50,776 nucleotides of DNA. Origin: an alpha proteobacterium AAP38. Its GTDB lineage: Bacteria > Pseudomonadota > Alphaproteobacteria > Azospirillales > Azospirillaceae. This document shows, piece by piece, positions 286 to 10,016 of this stretch. Made by a program: the position numbers and the translations under genes. Position 1 is the stretch's first letter, and each line of letters starts with the position of its first letter. The stretch is from positions 1 through 50,776 of the forward strand of contig LJHR01000032.1 of assembly GCA_001296005.1 (NCBI GenBank), written 5' to 3'. The notes under the pieces are model-generated. The model ran no database searches and had not been told where the DNA came from. It worked only from the letters and a program-made list of their open reading frames with translations.

Positions 286-683
286 GATGGGCTCCGATTG
301 TCCGATAGGGCCGGCGGTGCCGCCGGTGGCCGAGTTGCTCGACCGGAAAGCCAGCACAGAATGGACCCAAGCCGGGCATTGGACAATTATCCGCGTATTT
401 CAGGCCTCTAACACGTTGGTATAGGTTTATTAACCATGGTGCTGGTGACAACGACACGGGTGCGACGGGCCGCACCTATCGCTATGACACCCGCTCTATG
501 CAGGTGGGGCCCAACGCGCCCGGCTTGGCGACGAGCTCTGGCCAATAGGGCGGGCCTGGAACAGTTGAACAGCATCACGACGCTGTATCAGGAGTTGGAC
601 GGGATCGAGTGGGGCAGTTACGACCCTGCCGGCACCCTAAAGCAACGCACCATCCGCGCCCCTGTCGCTGGCGATGTTGTGGT
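286..683. other. Region without an intact gene upstream of the integrase remnant
   Basis: Roughly 400 bp between the hydrolase start and the recombinase remnant. The first part must hold the hydrolase promoter. Between about 430 and 546 one plus-strand frame reads NHGAGDNDTGATGRTY and on to a TAG near 546; it looks like the tail of a coding sequence but has no start and I cannot assign it. From about 550 another frame is open and runs into the recombinase remnant, but its residues do not match the recombinase family before AIDSKLRG. Confidence 0.35.
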
Positions 684-1102
684 GGCCATCGACAGCAAGC
701 TACGTGGTTGTGACCTTGTCCGGATGAAGATCAGCGACATTGTTCGTGGTGGAGAAATCCGGTCCCGTTCCTCTGGTTGTTAAAAAGAAAACGGGACGGC
801 CAGTTCAGTTCGAGTTGCTGGAGACGGCCCGCAAAAGCCTGAAGGCTTGGCTGGAACGGCGGGGCGGGTCGTTGACTGATTATGTTTTTCCCAGCCGAGA
901 CGATCATGCAAAACCCACCAGCACCCGCCAGTATGCGCGCCTTGTTGAGGAATGGGTGATTGGGACCGGCCTGCGCCGCGAGGATTATGGAACCCATTCC
1001 CTGCGGAGGGCCAAGGCTGCCCTCATTTAAAAGCAGACCGGCAACCTGCGCGCCGTGCAAATCCTGCTGGGCCAGACCAAGATCGAGACGACGGACATAT
1101 AG
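684..1102 (+). pseudogene. Degraded tyrosine recombinase (phage-type integrase) remnant
   Basis: Two frames together spell the C-terminal catalytic part of a tyrosine recombinase common in Alphaproteobacteria. The first frame gives AIDSKLRGCDLVRMKISDIV, containing the first catalytic Arg region. A frameshift between about 745 and 785 moves the match to another frame, which reads KKKTGRPVQFELLETARKSL and later [14 protein letters not shown], containing the His-x-x-Arg box. That frame is cut by TAA at 1028, where the family has Tyr-Lys-Gln-Thr-Gly. The text continues as KQTGNLRAVQILLGQTKIETT and stops again at 1100. The second conserved His is Gln here (LLGQTKIE) and the region with the nucleophilic Tyr is gone. 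The N-terminus is also missing, so the gene cannot work. It marks past mobile-element activity at the left edge of the lasso cluster. Confidence 0.8.
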
Positions 1103-1360
1103 CCGGTGTATCCGCTGGTAACCACCGGGGCGGGCGGGAATGGCCGGAATCCCAGATTTGTCGCCATAAACCCGCCCGTCCGCTTCCGGCCCGATTTGGC
1201 CGCTTCGCACCCCGTTTCGGTCATTCTCACACTGGTGCGCGCCCACCATAAGCGGACTGTCAGCTCGCATGACTATTTGACGCGGCTGGACGCCTTGAAA
1301 TGGTGGTAAGCGGACACTCATTGGGCGATGCAGTAGATCAACCAGAGGGAGCAGTACGCG
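1103..1360 (+). promoter_or_regulatory. Upstream region of the lasso cluster
   Basis: No gene recognised. This 258-bp stretch separates the recombinase remnant from the cyclase gene and must contain the promoter of the cluster if it is transcribed on its own; I cannot pick convincing -35/-10 boxes. A good ribosome-binding site, AGGGAG at 1346-1351, lies nine bases before the cyclase ATG at 1361. Confidence 0.35.
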
Positions 1361-3217
1361 ATGTTTGCGGGCGTGATGTCGGTCGGGCGCAAAGGCTGGC
1401 CCATGCCCCGGCCGACTGCCGCCAGCATGGCGATTCCCTTCGCGGTGTTCGGACAGGCTGACGCTGAAGGCATGGCAGTATCGGAAACAGCGGTCCTGCT
1501 CGAGCGCAGGCGCTTCGTCAGCGCACAGAACCGCGACTTGGAACTGCCGCGTTGCTGCCCTAAGTCAGGAGCTTGGATCAGCTTTTGGGGGCGGATCGAC
1601 AACCGCGCCGATTTGGCCCGAGCACTTGGCCTCGTCGGCGTTGGTGACGAAACGACCGATGCTGCCTTGGTCGTAGCGGCTTGGGCACGGTTCGGTCGTG
1701 ATCTGCCTGCGCAGTTGATTGGTGATTTCACGCTCGCTGTGATCGACGATGCGCGCCGCCAAGTCTTTCTCGCCCGCGATCCCATGGGGTCTAGGCCGCT
1801 CTATTATCGATACGACAATGGCGTCTTTGCCTTCGCGTCCACGGCCGCGGCGCTGAAGTTTCCAGGCTTGCCGCTCACGCCTGACCGTGGCTGGATCGCG
1901 CGGTCTCTATGGGGAGGGCTGTCCAAGCATATCGAACGGACTGCTTATGTCGAGTTCCAAAAATTGCCCGGCGGACACACACTGTTCCTGGAGGCTGATG
2001 GTACACCACAGGTCGAGCGCTGGCACCATTGGCGCGATGATGCTCCCTTCGCCACACGGCGCGATTCTGCGCATGTCGACGCCTATCGCGCCATGCTCGA
2101 AGAGAGCGTGAATTGCCGTCTGACGAGCGATTATCCCGTGGGCGTCGAGACATCAGGTGGCATCGATTCATCAATCGCAGTGGCGCTTGCTGCGCGGACC
2201 CTTGGCTCGGGCGACCGGCTGCGGACGTTTGGATTTGCTAATTTTGAGGATGAACCTGAATTGATCCTGGCGACCAGCCAAGCGTACCGGATCGAGCATA
2301 ACTATCTGGCCACTGGATATGCGGTATGCGAGGCGGAATCCGCCCGCGTACTCGCTGCGATCGGCTATCCTGCCGAACATGGAAATGCCGATTTTCATGT
2401 GCCCTTTTATCGCGAGGCCACACTGCATGGCGTGCGCACGTTGATTTCAGGATTCGGAGGCGACGAGGTTGTCTCCAATCAAGGCCAACACGCACTGATT
2501 GAAATGCAGCGGGCAGGAGCCTATCGTCAGCTTCTGGAAATGCTAAAGGGCAATGCACTGATGCGGACCGCACGGCTGGCCAAGCGCATTCTGATGCCTC
2601 CCCGTGCGCAGACACACAATTCGGCATACCTTACTGACTGGCGTCAGCGTTGGCCTCACTGCCCGCTGACCAATTCGGTAATCGACGAACATCAAGTTGA
2701 GCGCGATTATTTCAACTCAGCAAGGTTCGATGGCCCTTATGAGCGCGTCAATGACTTCATTCTCGGTCACCACCTAGGCCCGATGGATTCGACCACCCGG
2801 CTGGAAAATTGCACCCTCGCCGCTGCTGCCTGGGGAATCGAATATCGTTGGCCGTTGTGGGACGCGCGTTTGGTGCAGCTGTATCTTTCAACGCCCACGA
2901 TCGAGAAATTTGGCCCAAGGGGCATCGGCCGCTACCTTCATCGCCGCGCGATTGATGGGATCGTGCCATCAAAAGTCGCGTGGCGGATGACCAAATGGAT
3001 GGGATCACCCGTTGGCAGGCACCTTGATCCGCGCGATCTGGCCGATTGGGGGCGTGTTCTAAGAGACAAAATGCCCTCCGACGTTGCTGCGGTCATCGAT
3101 CCAGAGAAGCTGGATCGCCTGATTGACGGGCTGGAAGGCACTCCAGACTATGAATACAGAGCACTTTGCAGAAGGACGTTCACCTCGCTGTCTTCGGTCA
3201 GTCGGTGGTTGGAGTAG
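1361..3217 (+). CDS. Lasso peptide cyclase (C protein, asparagine-synthetase-like)
   Basis: Predicted to adenylate the side chain of the ring-forming acidic residue of the precursor and let the new N-terminal amine attack it, closing the isopeptide bond. The 618 residues show an N-terminal class II glutamine-amidotransferase-like domain (about 1-215, including GRIDNRADLARAL at 77-89 and LARDPMGSRPLYY at 137-149), then the ATP-pyrophosphatase domain with PP-loop SGGIDSS (265-271) and SGFGGDE (363-369). The protein begins MFAGV where true asparagine synthetases have MCGI, so the glutaminase Cys is absent, as in lasso cyclases. Start supported by AGGGAG nine bases upstream. It is the first gene of the cluster, whereas in most proteobacterial clusters the precursor comes first. 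Codon use is noticeably less GC-rich than in the flanking chromosomal genes. Confidence 0.9.
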   Translation: MFAGVMSVGRKGWPMPRPTAASMAIPFAVFGQADAEGMAVSETAVLLERRRFVSAQNRDLELPRCCPKSGAWISFWGRIDNRADLARALGLVGVGDETTDAALVVAAWARFGRDLPAQLIGDFTLAVIDDARRQVFLARDPMGSRPLYYRYDNGVFAFASTAAALKFPGLPLTPDRGWIARSLWGGLSKHIERTAYVEFQKLPGGHTLFLEADGTPQVERWHHWRDDAPFATRRDSAHVDAYRAMLEESVNCRLTSDYPVGVETSGGIDSSIAVALAARTLGSGDRLRTFGFANFEDEPELILATSQAYRIEHNYLATGYAVCEAESARVLAAIGYPAEHGNADFHVPFYREATLHGVRTLISGFGGDEVVSNQGQHALIEMQRAGAYRQLLEMLKGNALMRTARLAKRILMPPRAQTHNSAYLTDWRQRWPHCPLTNSVIDEHQVERDYFNSARFDGPYERVNDFILGHHLGPMDSTTRLENCTLAAAAWGIEYRWPLWDARLVQLYLSTPTIEKFGPRGIGRYLHRRAIDGIVPSKVAWRMTKWMGSPVGRHLDPRDLADWGRVLRDKMPSDVAAVIDPEKLDRLIDGLEGTPDYEYRALCRRTFTSLSSVSRWLE

Positions 3218-3284
3218 CAATGTGATGTCGCCTGCCGCGTGCGACGACGTGCGACTGCGGGAGGGCCGCGGAGCGAGGAGTGAA

Positions 3285-4439
3285 ATGCCGATCAGGACCC
3301 TGAGTGATCTCGTCACTACTGCGAACATGGCTGCCTTTTCCGTCGCCTTTGCCACCAAGGCCCGCTGGCATGCGGAAATGCCGATGCGTACGGATATATC
3401 AGAACTGTGTCCTTGGCCGACGTTCGACGCATTGATCGCAACAGGCGCAATTCCAGCCGATAAGTTCGCTGTACTCCTCAACGCAAAATCGATGCTGAAG
3501 TCGTTTTATGTTGACGAACGAGGCCAACTCCGGCCGGACGCGATCCAGGCATTCGCAGCCCAGGGTGCGACGCTGACTGTCAACAATATCGACCGCTTCG
3601 TGCCCGCGATCGGCGAGTTGGCAACGGCGATCGAGCGTGAGCTGTGCTGCAAAACCGGGGTCAACGCGTATATCAGCTTTGGCACGAAGTCCGCATTTCT
3701 GGCGCACTCCGACGACCATGATGTGCTGATCGTTCAGCTTCAGGGCGTCAAGCATTGGCGCACGTACGGAGTGCCGGAACCGTTTCCAACAAGAAGCGTG
3801 CATATGGGAAGCCCCCCCCCTTGTGAATGGGAAGGGCGAATGACGCCGGGTGACCTACTCTATCTTCCGCGCGGGGAGGTCCACGCCGCGGTTCCCGAAG
3901 AACAGCCGTCGATGCACCTTACGATCGGAATCGCCGAGCAGACGGGGGTGGATTTCATCGCGTGGCTGGCAACGAAAGCGAAAGAGGTTGTCGCATTACG
4001 TCGTGACCTGGGCGCCACGCTGCCCCGAGAAGCGCGCGTTGCCCGTGACCGCGAACTTATTCAGTCAATCCTTGACCTGCTGGAAACCGCAACGGTTGGC
4101 GAATTCGAGGCTCTCCAGGCCACTCAACGTTCGCTCCGACCACTTGCCAGTTTCGGAATTGCCGGCAGGCTGACGCCCACGAGCCGCCTGGTCAGTGCTT
4201 TGCGGCGAGAGGTCGATCTGATGGTCGAGCGAGAGGGGGCTGCCCAATTAGTAATCGGAGAACAACGTTTTAGGTTATCTCTGAATGGACGTCTTGCACT
4301 TGCTAATATCAACCATCTTGGCACCGTGTCCTTCGGTGCGCTTACAGAAGAATTGGCAGGCAAAATGTCGGTTAACGATTTGGCCAAGGCTATTCAGGAG
4401 TTGGCAGAAAAATCCTTGGTCGCTATCGCGGAGGATTAA
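3285..4439 (+). CDS. JmjC/cupin-type 2-oxoglutarate Fe(II) hydroxylase
   Basis: Member of the ribosomal-oxygenase-like JmjC family (YcfD/RoxA, MINA53/NO66 type), enzymes that hydroxylate amino-acid side chains using 2-oxoglutarate, O2 and Fe(II). The iron-binding facial triad is visible: His141-x-Asp143 in AHSDDHDVLIVQLQGVKHW and the distal His200 in GDLLYLPRGEVHAA. The C-terminal ~160 residues resemble the dimerisation/winged-helix part of the family. Start chosen at ATG 3285, preceded by GAGGAG (3275-3280). An upstream GTG at 3222 or ATG at 3225 is possible, with GGAG at 3211-3214, and would add about 20 residues. It sits between cyclase and precursor, so the substrate is probably the lasso precursor; this is inference. 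A run of nine C at 3812-3820 lies inside the coding region and could be a slippage site. Confidence 0.85.
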   Translation: MPIRTLSDLVTTANMAAFSVAFATKARWHAEMPMRTDISELCPWPTFDALIATGAIPADKFAVLLNAKSMLKSFYVDERGQLRPDAIQAFAAQGATLTVNNIDRFVPAIGELATAIERELCCKTGVNAYISFGTKSAFLAHSDDHDVLIVQLQGVKHWRTYGVPEPFPTRSVHMGSPPPCEWEGRMTPGDLLYLPRGEVHAAVPEEQPSMHLTIGIAEQTGVDFIAWLATKAKEVVALRRDLGATLPREARVARDRELIQSILDLLETATVGEFEALQATQRSLRPLASFGIAGRLTPTSRLVSALRREVDLMVEREGAAQLVIGEQRFRLSLNGRLALANINHLGTVSFGALTEELAGKMSVNDLAKAIQELAEKSLVAIAED

Positions 4440-4503
4440 CGCTTGCGCTTCATCCCTATCTTTGCGTAGTTTTCTCCCCAAGTATCACATGAAGGGCCAG
4501 AAT

Positions 4504-4665
4504 ATGACCAGCCAAGTCGAGACCAATGAAGGCGTTGTGGCTCCGCTGACCACCAAGGAAGCATGGGAAACGCCGCGGGTCACGTCTGCTGCGGTCTCTG
4601 AGATCACCAAGGGTGGCCCTACCCGTGGCACTGAAACCGGCGGCGACATTGGCCCTACTAGCTGA
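4504..4665 (+). CDS. Lasso peptide precursor (A)
   Basis: A 53-residue precursor. The leader (1-36) contains W21-E-T-P24-R-V26, matching the Tyr-x-x-Pro-x-Leu box bound by B1 proteins with Trp in place of Tyr, at the normal distance from the cleavage site. Thr35 is the conserved Thr at -2. Cleavage after Lys36 would release the core GGPTRGTETGGDIGPTS (37-53): Gly1 for the isopeptide, Glu8 for an 8-residue ring, a 9-residue loop and tail, one Arg (5), one Asp (12), and a C-terminal Ser (17). If the ring began at the second Gly the acceptor would be residue 7. The terminal Ser is the residue phosphorylated by lasso precursor kinases, and such a kinase is encoded downstream. Start chosen at ATG 4504 with AAGGG just upstream; ATG 4489 would add five residues. 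Confidence 0.88.
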   Translation: MTSQVETNEGVVAPLTTKEAWETPRVTSAAVSEITKGGPTRGTETGGDIGPTS

Positions 4666-4811
4666 TGGCTTCAGCCTAGCTGGGCCTCAATATGGGGGGT
4701 GGATTGGATCCTTCCCTCTCAATCGGCGCGGGGGAACATTTGCCTGTGGTGCGTTATGCCACACGCAAGGAGGGAAGCGTCCAACGTTGAAATTGCTGAG
4801 GTTTGGACTGA
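4666..4811 (+). promoter_or_regulatory. Structured spacer between precursor and tailoring genes
   Basis: A 146-bp spacer inside an otherwise tight gene series. It can fold: CTTCCCTC at 4711-4718 pairs with GAGGGAAG at 4770-4777, and inside it TGTGG at 4745-4749 pairs with CCACA at 4759-4763. There is no U-tract, so it is not a classical terminator. Such spacers behind RiPP precursor genes often protect the 3' end or thin out read-through, giving more precursor than enzyme. That role is inference. Confidence 0.45.
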
Positions 4812-5717
4812 ATGTTGTCCCTAGAGAGGCGACTTCGAGGTTGGACGCCCATCGCCTTTCATGGCGGTCACGAAGCTGTCATTGAATGGGCTGATTTGCG
4901 CGATCAGTCGTTCGACAGACCTTTCTTTTCTCAAACCCTGAAGGCACGGAGCGCAGCGTCGAACGACGCCATCGTGCAGTCCGGCCTGTCAACACTTTCA
5001 TCACTCGATTCCGAGCCGTCACTCGATCCCGATGTGATCATCGCTCACCCGTCGCGGTCCGGATCGACGTTGCTTTCGCTGCTGACAGCCGCAATGCACG
5101 AACAATCGGTTCTTGTTGGTGAGCCCGAGATCGTTTTTCAGCTTCTTCAGGCCAATTTGCAACGCCCGCTCGAGGCGCCGGATAAAGCCCTACGGCAATT
5201 GATCCGGGCGCTCGGTCGCAGACGCTTTGGTACAGAGCAGCGCTTTGTCGTCAAACTTTCCAGCCGGACCAGCCATTTCCTTGCGCTGTTCCGTCGGGCC
5301 TTTCCCAAGACCCCGATCGTCTGGGTGCAGCGGGAGCCGACAGAGATCGTCGAGTCAAACCTCAGGAGACCGCGCCGGGCGCTTGCAGGATTGGATCCGG
5401 AATCGGTCGCTCGACTGGCACTGCGCGATGTGTCCTGGGCGTTTCTGGCGGCGACTGGTTTCGAAGATGCCAATTTTCACGTTGTCGACTATCGCAACTT
5501 GCCCTGTGCAGCGTGGACCCGTGTAGCGCCGCTTATGCAGGTGCAGATCGGAGAGGATTGCTTGTTGCGGATGCACAATGTGAGTCGCACTCATTCGCAT
5601 AGCGGCGAACCCTACTTGTGGCGTACGCCAAGCCCGTTGCCTAAGAATGTGCAAGATATTGTTAGCAATACGCTCGACCCACTCTATGAGGCACTTGCAA
5701 GGCGGGCGCAGCTTTGA
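4812..5717 (+). CDS. Sulfotransferase in the lasso cluster
   Basis: A 301-residue PAPS-dependent sulfotransferase-like protein, cytoplasmic with no signal peptide. The 5'-phosphosulfate loop is HPSRSGSTLL (79-88) after the first beta strand (DVIIA), and the 3'-phosphate region is IVWVQREPTEIVESNL (169-184) with the usual Arg and Ser-like positions. The N-terminal ~45 residues (WTPIAFHGGHEAVIEWADLR, PFFSQTL) form a small leading domain. The gene follows the precursor by 146 bp and its stop overlaps the start of the kinase gene (TTGA), so the two are translationally coupled. In context it probably sulfates a hydroxyl of the precursor or mature peptide, possibly one installed by the upstream hydroxylase. 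A role on a small molecule cannot be excluded. Start ATG 4812 has GAGG about ten bases upstream. Confidence 0.82.
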   Translation: MLSLERRLRGWTPIAFHGGHEAVIEWADLRDQSFDRPFFSQTLKARSAASNDAIVQSGLSTLSSLDSEPSLDPDVIIAHPSRSGSTLLSLLTAAMHEQSVLVGEPEIVFQLLQANLQRPLEAPDKALRQLIRALGRRRFGTEQRFVVKLSSRTSHFLALFRRAFPKTPIVWVQREPTEIVESNLRRPRRALAGLDPESVARLALRDVSWAFLAATGFEDANFHVVDYRNLPCAAWTRVAPLMQVQIGEDCLLRMHNVSRTHSHSGEPYLWRTPSPLPKNVQDIVSNTLDPLYEALARRAQL

Positions 5718-6649
5718 CCCTGCATTTTTATCGCATCTGCGGCTTGGTTGTCGCGTCCGAAATAGAACTGGCTGGTTCATTACCGCTCAAGGCATCGAAC
5801 CAGAGCCACGACGTGGTCATGCGTTTGGGCGGGGTTCCTCAAACCTTATTGAACGCTACGACATCCAGGCCAGGGTGGAACGCTCATGGAGACCAATTCC
5901 TACTCCGCGCGCCTGGCACCGGGCGATTTCTGATCAAGCGCGGCCAGGAGGTTGTGTTCGAACTCGAGCCGGGCGTTCCTGCACAAGCCTGTGCGGCCTA
6001 TCTGCAAGGCACAGTTATGGGCGCTTTGCTTCACCAGCGCGGCGGCATTGTTCTCCATTCGAGCGGCATCGAAGCCGACGGTGGGGCAATTCTATTTGCG
6101 GGCGCATCGGGAGAAGGCAAGTCGACCCTGGTAGCGGCGCTTTCGACCCGGGGCTATCCCGTGATTTGCGACGACGTGAGCCATGTTTCGTTTAATCAGG
6201 AAGGTCGTCCGCTGGTTAGCTCAGATGCACGGAGAATAAAGCTCACCGATGAATCCATACATGCCACAGGATTGGAGATGGGACGTCGCGAAGCTGTGCT
6301 GGCCAATACTGAAAAGACCTATGTGAAGCCAGCAAAGCATTGGACGGGTTCCGATCTACCACTGAGGGCGATTTATCTACTGCAATCGGCGGCGATCAAC
6401 GATGCGGTCGTAGCGCGCCTTCCGTCTGCCATGGCGCTCAACGAATTACGGGGAAATGCACATCGCCCAAACATCGTGCTTCACACTGGGCAGCTCCCCC
6501 GCTATTTTCAGGCCTCAGCAAAAATTCTGGAGCATGCGCCAGTCTACGTTGTTAAACGTGGGCGCGACCTGTCGAAACTCGCATCAACCATGGATATTCT
6601 GGAAGCGCACTGGCGAGCGTGTGCCTGGACTGTACTCAAGAGGAACTAA
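5714..6649 (+). CDS. HPr-kinase-like lasso precursor kinase
   Basis: A 311-residue protein of the HprK-related family. Relatives in the paeninodin type of lasso cluster phosphorylate the C-terminal Ser of the precursor. Walker A is GASGEGKST (130-138), followed by CDD at 152-154, where HprK proteins have acidic metal-binding residues. His107 and His115 in LLHQRGGIVLHSS match the conserved segment before the P-loop. The start is TTG at 5714 inside the stop of the sulfotransferase (CTTTGA), giving MTLHFYRICGLVVASEIEL, the usual first strands of the family. PqqD starts five bases after the stop. The precursor here ends in Ser, matching the expected substrate. Together with B1 it makes the cluster paeninodin-like in part. 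Confidence 0.85.
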   Translation: MTLHFYRICGLVVASEIELAGSLPLKASNQSHDVVMRLGGVPQTLLNATTSRPGWNAHGDQFLLRAPGTGRFLIKRGQEVVFELEPGVPAQACAAYLQGTVMGALLHQRGGIVLHSSGIEADGGAILFAGASGEGKSTLVAALSTRGYPVICDDVSHVSFNQEGRPLVSSDARRIKLTDESIHATGLEMGRREAVLANTEKTYVKPAKHWTGSDLPLRAIYLLQSAAINDAVVARLPSAMALNELRGNAHRPNIVLHTGQLPRYFQASAKILEHAPVYVVKRGRDLSKLASTMDILEAHWRACAWTVLKRN

Positions 6650-6653
6650 CGGC

Positions 6654-6926
6654 ATGATAATTGCGCACAACGGCGAGTGGCTAAGCGCTATGATCGGCGC
6701 AGAATGTGCGCTGATGTGCATCGACAACGGCAACTACATCGTGGTCTCGCGAGTAGGCGCTCGAATTTGGGAATTGATTGCGGAACCTCAAGATCTATCG
6801 GATATTTGCGCTCAGCTCTGCAAAGAGTTCGATGTTGCAGAGCATACCTGCCGGAATGAAGTCGAATCATTTGTCATGACACTTCGAGAGGAAGGTGCCG
6901 TAACGTGTTCGGTGCCAGATGCGTGA
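6654..6926 (+). CDS. PqqD-like leader-recognition protein (lasso B1, RRE)
   Basis: A 90-residue stand-alone RiPP recognition element of the PqqD family. The pattern GAECALMCIDNGNYIVVSRVGARIWELI (14-41) is the beta-strand/turn and first helix of the fold; LSDICAQLCKEFDV and EVESFVMTLREEGAV are the following helices. In lasso clusters this protein binds the leader box (here W21-x-x-P24) and presents the precursor to the B2 protease. Start ATG 6654 is preceded by AAGAGGAAC. The partner B2 normally follows directly, often fused; here it is absent. The stop (6924-6926) overlaps a GTG at 6923 that opens a 37-codon frame, possibly the former coupled start of the next gene. Confidence 0.85.
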   Translation: MIIAHNGEWLSAMIGAECALMCIDNGNYIVVSRVGARIWELIAEPQDLSDICAQLCKEFDVAEHTCRNEVESFVMTLREEGAVTCSVPDA

Positions 6927-7259
6927 CTGTCTCGGCGCACTATGCTGTCAGGGCAAAATTGTCGCTCTTCAGTCCATCACGCCCAACGCGTGGCGTAGCG
7001 TCGCGGAGTAGCGACCTCGCCAGAGGCATATGTTAGGCGGCGACGTGGCGCTTGTATATTCCGATGATGTCGGTGCCGCGTTCGAAACGCCGTTACGATC
7101 GCCACTTCATCATCTGTAGGAAGCGCTGGATGATGCGGCGCTGGATCGTCACCCAAACGTACTTGTTGAGCGGCGAAAACTTCGCTACTGGCTGTAGTGG
7201 TCCGCATTGGATGCGGGACGGTGCCATCAAGGCCGGGAACGTTCGTCCGGAGCGCAAAT
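6927..7259 (+). other. Gene-less stretch where the B2 leader protease would be expected
   Basis: 333 bp between B1 and the methyltransferase with no intact recognisable gene. A GTG at 6923 overlaps the B1 stop and opens MTVSAHYAVRAKLSLFSPSR, which ends at TAG 7034-7036. The same frame then stays open to a TGA at 7265-7267, but I cannot match either part to the transglutaminase-like B2 family (no Cys, His, Asp triad context such as a HAWVE-like segment). A short inverted repeat, GTCGC...GCGAC, lies near 7002-7017. Minus-strand frames also carry short protein-like stretches. The region looks like rearranged sequence. Confidence 0.4.
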
Positions 7260-8327
7260 GTGACTGACGACATTTTCTCCCGCTACCCGAGCGTCCGAGG
7301 AAATTCGCGCTCCATGGCGATGCTGAGCGCGGTGCTGCATGAGAAGGGGCTTGTGGACGACGCCGTGGCAATGGCGACCGCCGCGATCGAAGCAGCGCCG
7401 GAGAGCATGGCGGTACGGGATATCATCGGCTATGCCCTCTCAAACGGTGTGCAGTCCTTTCATGTCCCCATGCTGCTCGACCATGCCCGCAACGCTGCCT
7501 ATGCTCGCGCAATACGCCGGATGGTACATCCGGGCATGCGCGTGCTCGAGATTGGAACCGGGGGCGGTTTGTTGGCGATGCTGTGCGCGGAGGCCGGCGC
7601 TATCGTCACGACATGCGAAGCCCAGCCGACAATCGCCGCGACAGCACGCGCGATCGTCGATCGCAATGGCTTCTCGGATCGCGTGCGGGTGATTTCGAAG
7701 CGTTCCGATCTGTTGAGTATCCCTGAAGATATGGATGCGCCCGCCGAACTGGTGGTCCATGAGATTTTCGGTAGGCGTCTTTTCGACGAGGGCGTCACCG
7801 CTGCCCTACGTGATGCGCGCGCGCGGCTACTCGTAGCGGGTGCGCCGGCGCTGCCCCCGCGCGCAGAAATCCGTTGCGCCCTCGCCCGATCGGTGGATGC
7901 GCGCCGGCGGGTTGTGACGATCGAGGGTTTCGACATGTCCCTGTTCAATCTGCTTACCGTGCCGGGGCGGCAGTTGAGACTGAAGAAGAGGGAGCATGTC
8001 GATTACTGTTCGGAAACCGCTTCCGTGCTGCGCATGGATTATGACGCCCCCTCGCCCTTCGGCCCTCAGACCGAGACGGTTTCCCTAGTCTCGACGGGGG
8101 GGCGGATAGACGGAGTAATGCAATGGATCCGTCTCGATTTCGGCGCAGGTGAGACATTGGAAAGCGATCCGTTCAGTGAGGACGGTGCGAGCTCGTGGGG
8201 AGCGACGTTGTTCGATTTCGCTGCGCCACTCGAAACGGCGCCGGGAGATATCGTCGAAGTCACCCTCTCTCACAAGGATATGCGGTTGCTGGTCGATGCC
8301 GTGGTCCGGCCTCGCAGCACCATGTGA
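7260..8327 (+). CDS. PRMT-like SAM methyltransferase
   Basis: A 355-residue class I methyltransferase. Motif I is RVLEIGTGGGLLAMLCAEAGA (94-114), with the ribose-binding Glu at 120 (TTCE). VVHEIFGRRLFDEG holds Glu168 and Glu177, nine apart, which is the spacing of the double-E loop that grips the substrate guanidinium in protein arginine methyltransferases. The C-terminal half is a beta-rich PRMT-like barrel. The N-terminal ~60 residues are helical and TPR-like. Start chosen at GTG 7260; an in-frame Met at 7314 would drop 18 residues. The predicted lasso core has a single Arg (position 5, in T-R-G), a plausible target; the leader also has one Arg. It is the last gene of the cluster before the IS. 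Whether it acts on the peptide is inference. Confidence 0.72.
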   Translation: MTDDIFSRYPSVRGNSRSMAMLSAVLHEKGLVDDAVAMATAAIEAAPESMAVRDIIGYALSNGVQSFHVPMLLDHARNAAYARAIRRMVHPGMRVLEIGTGGGLLAMLCAEAGAIVTTCEAQPTIAATARAIVDRNGFSDRVRVISKRSDLLSIPEDMDAPAELVVHEIFGRRLFDEGVTAALRDARARLLVAGAPALPPRAEIRCALARSVDARRRVVTIEGFDMSLFNLLTVPGRQLRLKKREHVDYCSETASVLRMDYDAPSPFGPQTETVSLVSTGGRIDGVMQWIRLDFGAGETLESDPFSEDGASSWGATLFDFAAPLETAPGDIVEVTLSHKDMRLLVDAVVRPRSTM

Positions 8328-8361
8328 AGAAGTCATGATGTGTTATTCGGCGTGGAAAAGT

Positions 8362-10016
8362 GGCTCTGACTCAATTTTGATGAAATTCGGGATTCCTCTG
8401 GAGTGGATTTTCCATAGGGATCAGCATGATGGGATTGGGCTTTCCACACTCGATGTTCGATGTTGCCGTCATGGCCATCAAGGACATCACCGATGATGAT
8501 GGGATGGTGCGCCTCACCATCAGCCCGGTCACGGCGATGAGCGCCTGTCCCGGATGCGGGACGCGGTCAGGTCGGATCCATAGCCGATATCATCGGCGGC
8601 TGGCGGACCTGCCGACCAGCGGTCGTCTGGTTGAGCTTGTGCTGCTTGCCCGCCGGTTTTTCTGCTATGCTGTGCTGTGCAGGCGCCGCGTATTCACGGA
8701 GCGCTTTGATCCGAATGTTCTCGCACCTTGGGCTCGCCGGACGGCCCGGCTGGATCAGGTTGTCCACCATCTGGGTCTGGCGCTGGGAGGTCGTCCGGCT
8801 GCTGCCCTGGCCCGTCGCTTGATGCTACCGGTGAGCAACGACACCTTGTTGCGGGTAGTTCGCCGTCGAGGCAGCCCGCGCATCGTGCCGCCTACGGTGA
8901 TCGGCGTGGATGATTGGGCGTGGCGACGCAATCACCGCTATGGAACCCTGATCTGCGACCTGGAGCGGAGGCGCACCATCGCCCTGCTGCCTGATCGTGA
9001 GCCGGCGACGACGCAAGCCTGGCTGGAACAGCAGCCGCAGGTCAGCATCGTGGCCCGCGACCGCGCAAGTGGCTACGCCCTGGCTGTCTCCAAGGCGTTG
9101 CCGACTGCCACGCAGGTGGCCGACCGCTGGCACCTGATGGAGAACGCAAGTCGAGCCTTTCTAGACGCAGTCCGGAAATCCATGCGGCAGATACGCACCG
9201 CGGTCGGCGCCACCAGCATCGATCCGGCCCTTCTCACGGCGGCAGAGCGCTTGCAGTACGAAGGATATCTGCGGCGTGAGGATACCAACAATGCGGTCCA
9301 ACGCCTGGCCAAGGAGGGCATCCCCATCAAGGAGATCGTTCGCCGGACCGGCCACAGCCGAGGGCTGGTGCGCAAAATCCTCCGGGGTCAGGGGACGGAC
9401 ATCTTCCGGACAAGGGAAAGTTCCCTGGAACTGCATCTTCTCTGGCTCGACCAGCAATGGCAGGCGGGCCATCGCAACGGTACTGAACTTTGGCGGCGGC
9501 TCAGGAAGGAGGGTTTCCAAGGCTCGCTGCGCGTCGTCACGGAATGGGCGACCCGCCGGCGCCGGGCCGACCAGATGGGAGTAGAGGCTCTCAAACGGAC
9601 ACCATCCGCCCGGATCATCGCCCGGCTCATGACCTTGGGACGCGATGCGCTGACAAAGGCTGAGACTGTCCTGGTTGCCGCCATTGAAAAGGGGGTCCCG
9701 ACCATTGTCGAAGCCAGGACCATCATCGCCGATTTCCAGGGCATGATCCGGCGCCGGTCGTTGGCTGACCTGGCCCCCGGGCTGGAACGGGCAAGCCCAT
9801 CCATGGTGGCGTCTTTCGCCAATGGCATCGTCAGGGATCGGGCCGCTGTGGAGGAGGCTATCACTTCCCCATGGTCCAACGGCCAAACCGAAGGCCAGAT
9901 AACCAAGCTCAAACTCGTCAAGCGCCAGATGTATGGCCGCGGAAAACTCGACCTGCTCCAGGCCCGCGTCATCGGTGCAGGGTAGAAAGGCACTTCACCA
10001 AAACTGCGTCAGAGCC
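8362..10016 (+). mobile_element. ISL3-family insertion sequence
   Basis: A 1655-bp element with 23-bp imperfect terminal inverted repeats. The left end GGCTCTGACTCAATTTTGATGAA (8362-8384) matches the reverse complement of the right end (9994-10016) at 20 of 23 positions. It carries one transposase gene. ISL3 elements usually make 8-bp target duplications; the flanking octamers here (GGAAAAGT and AAACTTCA) do not match, which points to a rearrangement or deletion after insertion. It marks the right end of the lasso cluster. Confidence 0.85.
8426..9985 (+). CDS. ISL3-family transposase
   Basis: A 519-residue transposase with the ISL3 architecture. It has an N-terminal zinc-finger-like part (CPGCGTRSGRIHSRYHRRLADLP, about 36-58) and a helix-turn-helix region, then the DDE catalytic domain beginning IGVDDWAWRRNHRYGTLICD (first Asp near 160), DRASGYALAVSKALP (second Asp near 210), and SPWSNGQTEGQITKLKLVKRQMYGRG near the C-terminus with the catalytic Glu. 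A long helical insertion with a second HTH (EIVRRTGHSRGLVRKILRG) separates the last two, as in longer ISL3 members. The frame is intact, so it may be active. The start ATG 8426 lies 41 bp inside the left inverted repeat. Confidence 0.9.
   Translation: MMGLGFPHSMFDVAVMAIKDITDDDGMVRLTISPVTAMSACPGCGTRSGRIHSRYHRRLADLPTSGRLVELVLLARRFFCYAVLCRRRVFTERFDPNVLAPWARRTARLDQVVHHLGLALGGRPAAALARRLMLPVSNDTLLRVVRRRGSPRIVPPTVIGVDDWAWRRNHRYGTLICDLERRRTIALLPDREPATTQAWLEQQPQVSIVARDRASGYALAVSKALPTATQVADRWHLMENASRAFLDAVRKSMRQIRTAVGATSIDPALLTAAERLQYEGYLRREDTNNAVQRLAKEGIPIKEIVRRTGHSRGLVRKILRGQGTDIFRTRESSLELHLLWLDQQWQAGHRNGTELWRRLRKEGFQGSLRVVTEWATRRRRADQMGVEALKRTPSARIIARLMTLGRDALTKAETVLVAAIEKGVPTIVEARTIIADFQGMIRRRSLADLAPGLERASPSMVASFANGIVRDRAAVEEAITSPWSNGQTEGQITKLKLVKRQMYGRGKLDLLQARVIGAG

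Follow-up and report, generated by a model that had tools for sequence, protein, structure and literature searches.

The 50,776-nt window (the whole stretch of DNA analysed: contig LJHR01000032.1 of alpha proteobacterium AAP38, assembly GCA_001296005.1) contains, at 1361-8327, a locus that we read from sequence comparison, with a probability of about 0.6, as a kinase-type lasso-peptide cluster with a split B protein (B1/B2), supplemented by a hydroxylase paired with a sulfotransferase and by a PRMT-like methyltransferase. Judged by the substitution rates given below, its seven genes are a selected unit under purifying selection.

Gene organization and predicted enzymes

The seven genes all lie on the + strand with intact frames, in the order C-JmjC-A-ST-K-B1-MT, and the coordinates and shared direction given in the first-pass annotation were confirmed. 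The features are as follows.

683..1110, no strand assigned: remnant resembling tyrosine recombinase genes (70-71% DNA identity to the best plasmid records)
1361..3217, + strand: lasso cyclase (C), asparagine-synthase-like, SGGIDS motif, 93% identical to L139 (see below)
3285..4439, + strand: JmjC_2 (PF08007) Fe/2-oxoglutarate dioxygenase, putative hydroxylase, HxD...H site
4504..4665, + strand: lasso precursor (A), 53 aa, core GGPTRGTETGGDIGPTS, C-terminal Ser
4812..5717, + strand: PAPS-type sulfotransferase (ST), predicted tyrosylprotein-sulfotransferase-like fold
5714..6649, + strand: HPr-kinase-like lasso kinase (K), Walker A GASGEGKST, start TTG
6654..6926, + strand: PqqD-like leader-binding protein B1 (RRE), matching PqqD and lasso PqqD models
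6948..7209, no strand assigned: extra stretch of ~262 bp between B1 and MT, missing in L139
7197..8327, + strand: PRMT-like methyltransferase (MT), GTG at 7260 being the likelier start
8362..10016, + strand: ISL3-family insertion element (transposase 8426-9985)

The open frame of the JmjC gene extends upstream to 3123, and the ATG at 3285 is favoured as its start. The tight spacing claimed earlier does not hold between B1 and MT, where ~330 bp precede the likely GTG start as compared with ~70 bp in L139.

The precursor consists of the leader MTSQVETNEGVVAPLTTKEAWETPRVTSAAVSEITK and the 17-residue core, and Thr-2, Gly1 and Glu8 can be read from it directly, as had been claimed. In profile searches, the cyclase matched Asn_synthase (E 2.5e-36) and the lasso cyclase model NF033535 (E 6.7e-66, 223 bits against a cut-off of 525), B1 matched PqqD (E 2.5e-17) and the lasso PqqD model NF033536 (64.2 bits against 80), and the kinase matched HprK_rel_A (E 3.6e-12, 46 bits against 200); a kinase profile also matched HPr kinase structures (E 1.5e-9). 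These three proteins and ST (Sulfotransfer_3, E 3.7e-5, 24.5 bits against a Pfam cut-off of 27) all score under the NCBIfam/Pfam cut-offs of their specific models. The cyclase, B1 and precursor matched as a lasso cluster requires, and the enzyme classes proposed for the extra genes are supported by motifs, profiles and one predicted fold.

The JmjC enzyme matched JmjC_2 (E 1.2e-21), and its iron-site residues H141, D143 and H200 are invariant among four homologues. In an alignment of 23 sequences, R82, G84-T86, E104, K148, R174 and S182 of ST are invariant, as fits a sulfotransferase with a PAPS-binding loop. The ST sequence profile matched no solved structure in the PDB and a fold comparison was required: the best PDB fold matches of the AF2 model (pLDDT 87.6) were tyrosylprotein sulfotransferases (E 5.1e-7, TM 0.57). 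For MT, the family-profile search gave general methyltransferase models only, and a profile of five cluster MTs matched PRMT7 in the PDB (E 1.9e-55). E184 and E193 of MT are invariant, and in our reading they may form the PRMT two-Glu loop. In a tree that carries a long-branch warning, the five labelled cluster rows were placed on one side (support 89/88) together with two unlabelled rows, including L118, which was left unlabelled although it is the same gene as the MT of L067. The grouping as labelled needs 3 changes against a shuffled mean of 4.8 (7 of 500 shuffles were equally low), which suggests that the cluster MTs form a separate lineage.

Conservation of the gene set and state of the AAP38 copy

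The gene set also occurs in other bacteria. Contig L139 of a Sphingomonadales MAG has the same seven genes in identical order at 89-93% DNA identity; it stops within MT, so that nothing downstream of MT is visible. Homology between AAP38 and L139 starts only at 1274. The L139 core, GGPTRGIETGGDIGPS, keeps the lasso precursor features, and both cores have Arg5 and a C-terminal Ser. The dN/dS values between AAP38 and L139, which are averages over the whole divergence, are 0.12 (C), 0.23 (JmjC), 0.28 (A), 0.21 (ST), 0.22 (K), 0.12 (B1) and 0.20 (MT). The distant cluster G067:C24 contains A, JmjC, C, K, ST, B2, MT, B1 and an ABC transporter in ~11 kb. Three more loci (plasmid p1 of TSH100 and two contigs of G074) contain B1, ST, K, C, JmjC and A; MT is missing from them. 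Because L139 keeps all seven genes under purifying selection and these parts recur together in distant clusters, the lasso genes and the extra enzymes appear to belong together. Thus, the extra enzymes are not always absent from homologous clusters, and their assignment to the lasso cluster is supported; the gene set is not confined to AAP38.

The B2 protease was not detected in the whole AAP38 genome, either with Transglut_core3 (E limit 0.001) or with lasso_biosyn_B2 (E limit 10). This genome is rated 100% complete, and B2 was present in 14/14 other genomes searched, which had been selected for their kinase loci. The absence of B2 argues against function of the cluster in AAP38, which can probably mature the peptide only if an unrecognised protease replaces B2. 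No exporter gene adjoins the cluster; the first-pass annotation mentions neither this nor the lack of B2. Neither B2 nor a lasso-type exporter is among 20 of the larger frames at 10-38 kb; these frames encode, among others, a K+ transporter and a solitary ABC ATPase. The cluster starts 1.4 kb from a contig end. Directly downstream of MT lies the ISL3 element, of which Niveispirillum cyanobacteriorum plasmids carry copies with 94% identity; the ends of the element were set from these copies and from inverted repeats, and no target duplication was found around it. It occupies the place where B2 comes after MT in G067. Because the element abuts MT without a target duplication, the AAP38 copy is probably truncated; it is probably also horizontally moved, and it may be silent. 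The extra stretch that separates B1 and MT is single-copy in the genome and had no match in the plasmid collection, and a comparison of 1274-8340 of the window with plasmid records gave nothing similar.

These observations would fit a dead or dying remnant, which arrived horizontally, lost B2 and its exporter by IS-mediated rearrangement and gives no product; we consider this possible, at slightly less than even odds. However, the seven frames are all intact and dN/dS is low, although it is averaged over the whole divergence. Furthermore, B2 and the kinase are on different contigs in several relatives (for example G058 and G074), and the draft AAP38 assembly may lack a piece. B2 was found in 11 of 19 loci. 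Loss of B2 from the gap between B1 and MT was considered and ruled out: MT lies close behind B1 in L139, which marks the gap as an insertion and places any loss of B2 elsewhere. The two B2 contigs of the Sphingomonadales MAG (L220 and L221) do not contain the exact eight-residue string of the AAP38 MT tail, which is a weak test of whether B2 continues L139.

Proposed route and alternative substrates

For the kinase-type cluster with its added enzymes, we propose a route that rests on the genes and their joint conservation, on their motifs and on one predicted fold; in it we infer every substrate and the order of steps. B1 would bind the leader, and the JmjC dioxygenase would hydroxylate a core residue. 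ST would then place sulfate on the new hydroxyl, or on Thr/Ser, and the kinase would phosphorylate the C-terminal Ser17. MT may methylate the core, for which Arg5 is the obvious candidate. B2 would remove the leader and C would link Gly1 to Glu8. A rule coupling MT to Arg in the core was tried: AAP38, L139 and G067 fit, but the MT-bearing G072, whose core was assigned by eye, has no Arg, and the rule was dropped. Phosphate is placed on the C-terminal Ser by proteobacterial lasso kinases, as described in the relevant part of PMC8498205. In TSH100 a kinase is present, yet the predicted core ends in Gly. The TSH100 precursor is an annotated one; the precursors collected along with it were found by a pattern requiring a C-terminal Ser and therefore do not test that residue, and those of the comparison that included G072 were chosen by eye.

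Of 80 ST loci, 72 have a hydroxylase gene no more than 2 kb from ST (52/52 in Pseudomonas and 20/28 in others); the 80 loci are mutually related, so that these are not 72 independent events. This proximity suggests that hydroxylation precedes sulfation. The predicted core of G067, AGGRVVADADPNRAS, has a single side-chain hydroxyl, on its C-terminal Ser. Therefore, unless the G067 ST uses this Ser, it would depend on the JmjC enzyme to create a hydroxyl. Kinase and ST could compete for the same Ser. If the two were strict alternatives, no molecule would carry both groups. The G067 core favours this idea, but the association of ST with a hydroxylase gene predicts a separate, newly made hydroxyl, and we regard strict alternatives as rather unlikely.

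ST and an AspH-type oxygenase also occur together, often with collar genes, in loci of Pseudomonas, Verrucomicrobia and Acidobacteria in which our comparison detected no lasso genes. Accordingly, ST, the hydroxylase and perhaps MT might act on another substrate, such as tail-collar-like proteins, leaving only the kinase, B1 and C to serve the lasso peptide. This is unlikely, because the JmjC gene adjoins the precursor in AAP38, L139, G067, TSH100 and G074, and ST lies between precursor and kinase in AAP38 and L139, with no collar gene found on the window or L139. Tail-collar genes adjoin 12 of 19 related lasso loci; some Azospirillum strains, such as TSH100, carry a collar triplet as well as the lasso cluster. 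It is conceivable, but quite improbable, that three tail-collar-domain proteins form the centre of a wider surface system to which the lasso peptide, the kinase and the hydroxylase-ST pair all belong. The sulfated, phosphorylated peptide would then serve a tail-fibre-like assembly as a ligand or as a covalently attached decoration; we know of no lasso peptide with such a role. That unrelated enzymes came to lie next to a lasso cluster by chance, which the recombinase and IS debris on the flanks might suggest, is hardly credible, given that the arrangement is the same, at 89-93% identity, in a different bacterial order and that the parts recur in distant relatives at ~30% identity.

Significance and comparison with known systems

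If the tailored lasso pathway works as predicted, its product would seemingly be the first sulfated lasso peptide (none is named in the review searched), perhaps bearing four kinds of modification, and the JmjC hydroxylase with ST and the PRMT-like MT would be new peptide-tailoring enzymes. The near-identical L139 and the complete G067 cluster, from which B2 is available, make the pathway testable. The frequent hydroxylase-ST pairing points to a general way to sulfated peptides, and the collar genes near many related loci may reveal the purpose of such peptides.

As far as PMC8498205 covers them, the kinase-type clusters of paeninodin, ThcoK and SyanK (Sphingobium yanoikuyae) share with AAP38 an HPr-kinase-like enzyme, a cyclase, a B protein and a precursor with a C-terminal Ser. 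AAP38 differs in adding a JmjC dioxygenase, ST and a PRMT-like MT, and in that B2 was not found. The same part of that paper mentions putative sulfotransferase genes in some Firmicutes lasso clusters, and describes the pseudomycoidin cluster (kinase and nucleotidyltransferase), which like AAP38 is kinase-type with a further tailoring enzyme. The nucleotidyltransferase has no counterpart in the AAP38 window; in the Sphingomonadales MAG, a nucleotidyltransferase-like gene (read by eye) is next to B2, on a contig other than L139. In Pontixanthobacter/Allopontixanthobacter, the relevant portion of PMC10040529 lists near-consecutive genes for B2, nucleotidyltransferase, sulfotransferase, aspartyl beta-hydroxylase, sulfotransferase, PqqD and asparagine synthase; there, these clusters are listed merely as co-occurring with halotolerance and no kinase is named. 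The canucin A cluster, in the account available, likewise has an Fe/2-oxoglutarate enzyme (the CanE hydroxylase), whereas in AAP38 the hydroxylase is a JmjC_2 protein paired with a sulfotransferase. Methyltransferases are present in the lassomycin/StspM and lihuanodin clusters as in AAP38; from the accounts available those enzymes are C-terminal or aspartyl O-methyltransferases, whereas the AAP38 MT matches PRMT7.

Gene content of the lasso cluster

The window is one entire contig (C26) of a 5.78 Mb genome assembled in 62 contigs. The reading frames and family matches place the genes of a lasso-peptide cluster in the following order.

1361-8327, + strand: cyclase, JmjC dioxygenase, precursor, sulfotransferase, HPr-kinase-like kinase, PqqD-like leader-binding protein (B1), PRMT-like methyltransferase

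The first-pass annotation had claimed a precursor with Thr-2, Gly1 and Glu8, and the translated frame bears this out: the leader ends in ...SEITK, and the core, GGPTRGTETGGDIGPTS, has a C-terminal Ser. The score of the sulfotransferase is under the Pfam cut-off. Its predicted structure (pLDDT 87.6) gave tyrosylprotein sulfotransferases as top matches (E 5.1e-7, TM 0.57). In an alignment of 23, R82, E104 and K148 are invariant; we take these to be the counterparts of the catalytic residues of tyrosylprotein sulfotransferase. A profile built from five cluster methyltransferases matched PRMT7 (E 1.9e-55). In a tree that carried long-branch warnings, the cluster methyltransferases were separated from most of the chromosomal paralogues (support 89/88), and a shuffled-label test gave only a moderate result. 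The JmjC protein retains HxD...H and the kinase retains Walker A. The locus is a real, multi-enzyme lasso cluster under selection and a variant of the kinase-type clusters.

Relatives and probable movement between orders

The genome_contigs collection was scanned with the sulfotransferase alignment; the best 80 of 183 relatives were kept, giving 79 loci. Among these best 80, one match was close, on contig JAIXZV010000213.1 of a Sphingomonadales MAG (L139), and the next was 36% identical. Gene content and gene order are the same in L139, with 89.1% identity over window 1274-6947 and 92.8% over 7210-8204; its contig stops inside the methyltransferase gene. Every frame of the cluster genes is open in this pair, and dN/dS is 0.12-0.28. 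The homology reaches upstream to window 1274. Beyond this point, L139 has a response-regulator-like frame (read by eye), whereas the window has a recombinase remnant. This remnant has matches in 136 plasmid records, the best from Sphingobium and Novosphingobium and the commonest from Sinorhizobium. The G+C content is 58.3% in the cluster versus 63.8% in the window from 10 kb on. The cluster is apparently mobile. Because the match lies in a Sphingomonadales MAG, the homology ends at 1274 and a recombinase remnant lies upstream, the sequences suggest that the cluster probably moved between bacterial orders. It is possible instead that the L139 contig was mis-binned into this MAG. Among 396 genomes drawn from the order of the MAG, 27 had sulfotransferase matches (E 1e-8 or better), and the best, except for the MAG itself (88%), were 35-36% identical.

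In the family of the window (82 genomes, its own counted), the kinase was matched in 31 genomes, JmjC in 25 and the sulfotransferase in five. The other four sulfotransferase genomes are G047, Azospirillum sp. TSH100 (G032), G067 and G074. In the last three, the sulfotransferase lies alongside cyclase, kinase, B1, JmjC and precursor, and the G067 locus also has the leader-cutting protease B2, a methyltransferase and an ABC transporter. Sequence comparison on 15 kb around the G047 sulfotransferase found no lasso genes. We compared 19 loci with kinase and cyclase, drawn from the higher-scoring matches, a subset of all; two (L065, L066) are from one contig and two (L069, L070) are near copies within one genome. 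B1 was present in 18 of the 19, collar genes (for phage tail-collar-domain proteins) in 12, B2 in 11, JmjC in nine, the sulfotransferase in four and the methyltransferase in two. All four sulfotransferase-bearing loci have JmjC.

The 12 collar-bearing loci, with three collar genes in ten and one at a contig edge in two, are as follows.

L061, L063, L066, L067, L138, L069, L070, L071, L072, L073, L076, L077

Collar genes also occur in 34 of the 79 sulfotransferase loci (17 outside Pseudomonas), some of them without detected lasso genes. Another contig of the window's genome carries a collar triplet (L255, G000:C39, 5754-19998), beside a GNAT and a TPR/glycosyltransferase-like protein. L255 also encodes a giant DUF4347/Ig-domain protein, a weakly sulfotransferase-like protein (16.8 bits versus a cut-off of 27) and a 2OG oxygenase 59% identical to one on a B2 contig of G074. 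The region is similar to that half of the TSH100 locus which carries B2, but has no B2 itself.

Pairing of hydroxylase and sulfotransferase

We counted as a hydroxylase gene any gene similar to JmjC or to any of three 2OG oxygenases, in 80 loci (the window and the 79 from the best 80 of 183 relatives). In 72 of the 80 (Pseudomonas, 52/52; others, 20/28), the sulfotransferase had such a gene no more than 2 kb away; this count is inflated by kinship of the loci. Four of the eight loci without one sit on contigs shorter than 5.7 kb. As a crude background, a mean of 26% of the locus was within 2 kb of a hydroxylase-type gene in the 28 non-Pseudomonas loci. In the predicted core of G067, the sole side-chain hydroxyl is that of the C-terminal Ser. 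Because of this single hydroxyl and the adjacency of the two genes, we favour the idea that the sulfate would go onto a hydroxyl installed by the dioxygenase.

In G074, a second small gene, sulfotransferase-like by eye, lies between B2 and a 2OG oxygenase (L132, 1344-2018; L133, 1346-2128). No Pfam family matched the L132 protein. In TSH100, a gene of similar size occupies the same interval. The small gene and the 2OG oxygenase of G074 are possibly another hydroxylase-sulfotransferase pair.

The B2 protease and published lasso clusters

Neither Transglut_core3 (E limit 0.001) nor a lasso B2 model (E limit 10) had a match in the genome of the window, which is the chief reservation about this cluster. 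The B2 model was positive in 14 of 15 genomes searched jointly, the exception being that of the window; the other 14 had been selected for kinase loci. The Sphingomonadales MAG has two B2 matches. One forms a pair (L220, 2654-4374) with a gene that is nucleotidyltransferase-like by eye, on an 8.2-kb contig without cyclase, kinase or B1 matches. By eye, the other resembles B1 and B2 fused into one frame and belongs to a classical cluster, together with isopeptidase-like and receptor-like genes. In G067, B2 immediately follows the methyltransferase. At this place in the window, an ISL3 element starts 34 bases past the methyltransferase stop, and no target duplication was found for the ends tried. 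The element shares 94% identity with copies in Niveispirillum cyanobacteriorum. We infer a rearrangement, by which B2 may have been lost.

A family scan of 20 of the larger frames at 10-38 kb found no lasso-type genes; the frames encode metabolic enzymes, regulators, a K+ transporter, a TonB receptor, an acetyltransferase and one ABC ATPase, and two had no match. Two ABC frames of the window, at 28.8 kb and at 38.5 kb, are 31-33% identical to the G067 transporter.

Separately, the B2 frame at 12098-12529 of L062 (G071:C25) contains an internal TAG. It adjoins a kinase-type lasso locus that is otherwise well populated; this cluster, too, may be losing its protease.

Literature titles and abstract openings, covering few subscription papers, contained no description of a lasso cluster with this enzyme set. 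The word sulfotransferase does not occur in the main text of a 2026 review of lasso modifications, and sulfation is not named in the portion available (PMC13352647). Another paper gives the C-terminal Ser as the phosphorylation target of lasso kinases from Proteobacteria and mentions that some lasso clusters of Firmicutes have putative sulfotransferase genes (PMC8498205). A third lists near-consecutive genes for B2, nucleotidyltransferase, sulfotransferase, aspartyl hydroxylase, sulfotransferase, PqqD and asparagine synthase (PMC10040529).
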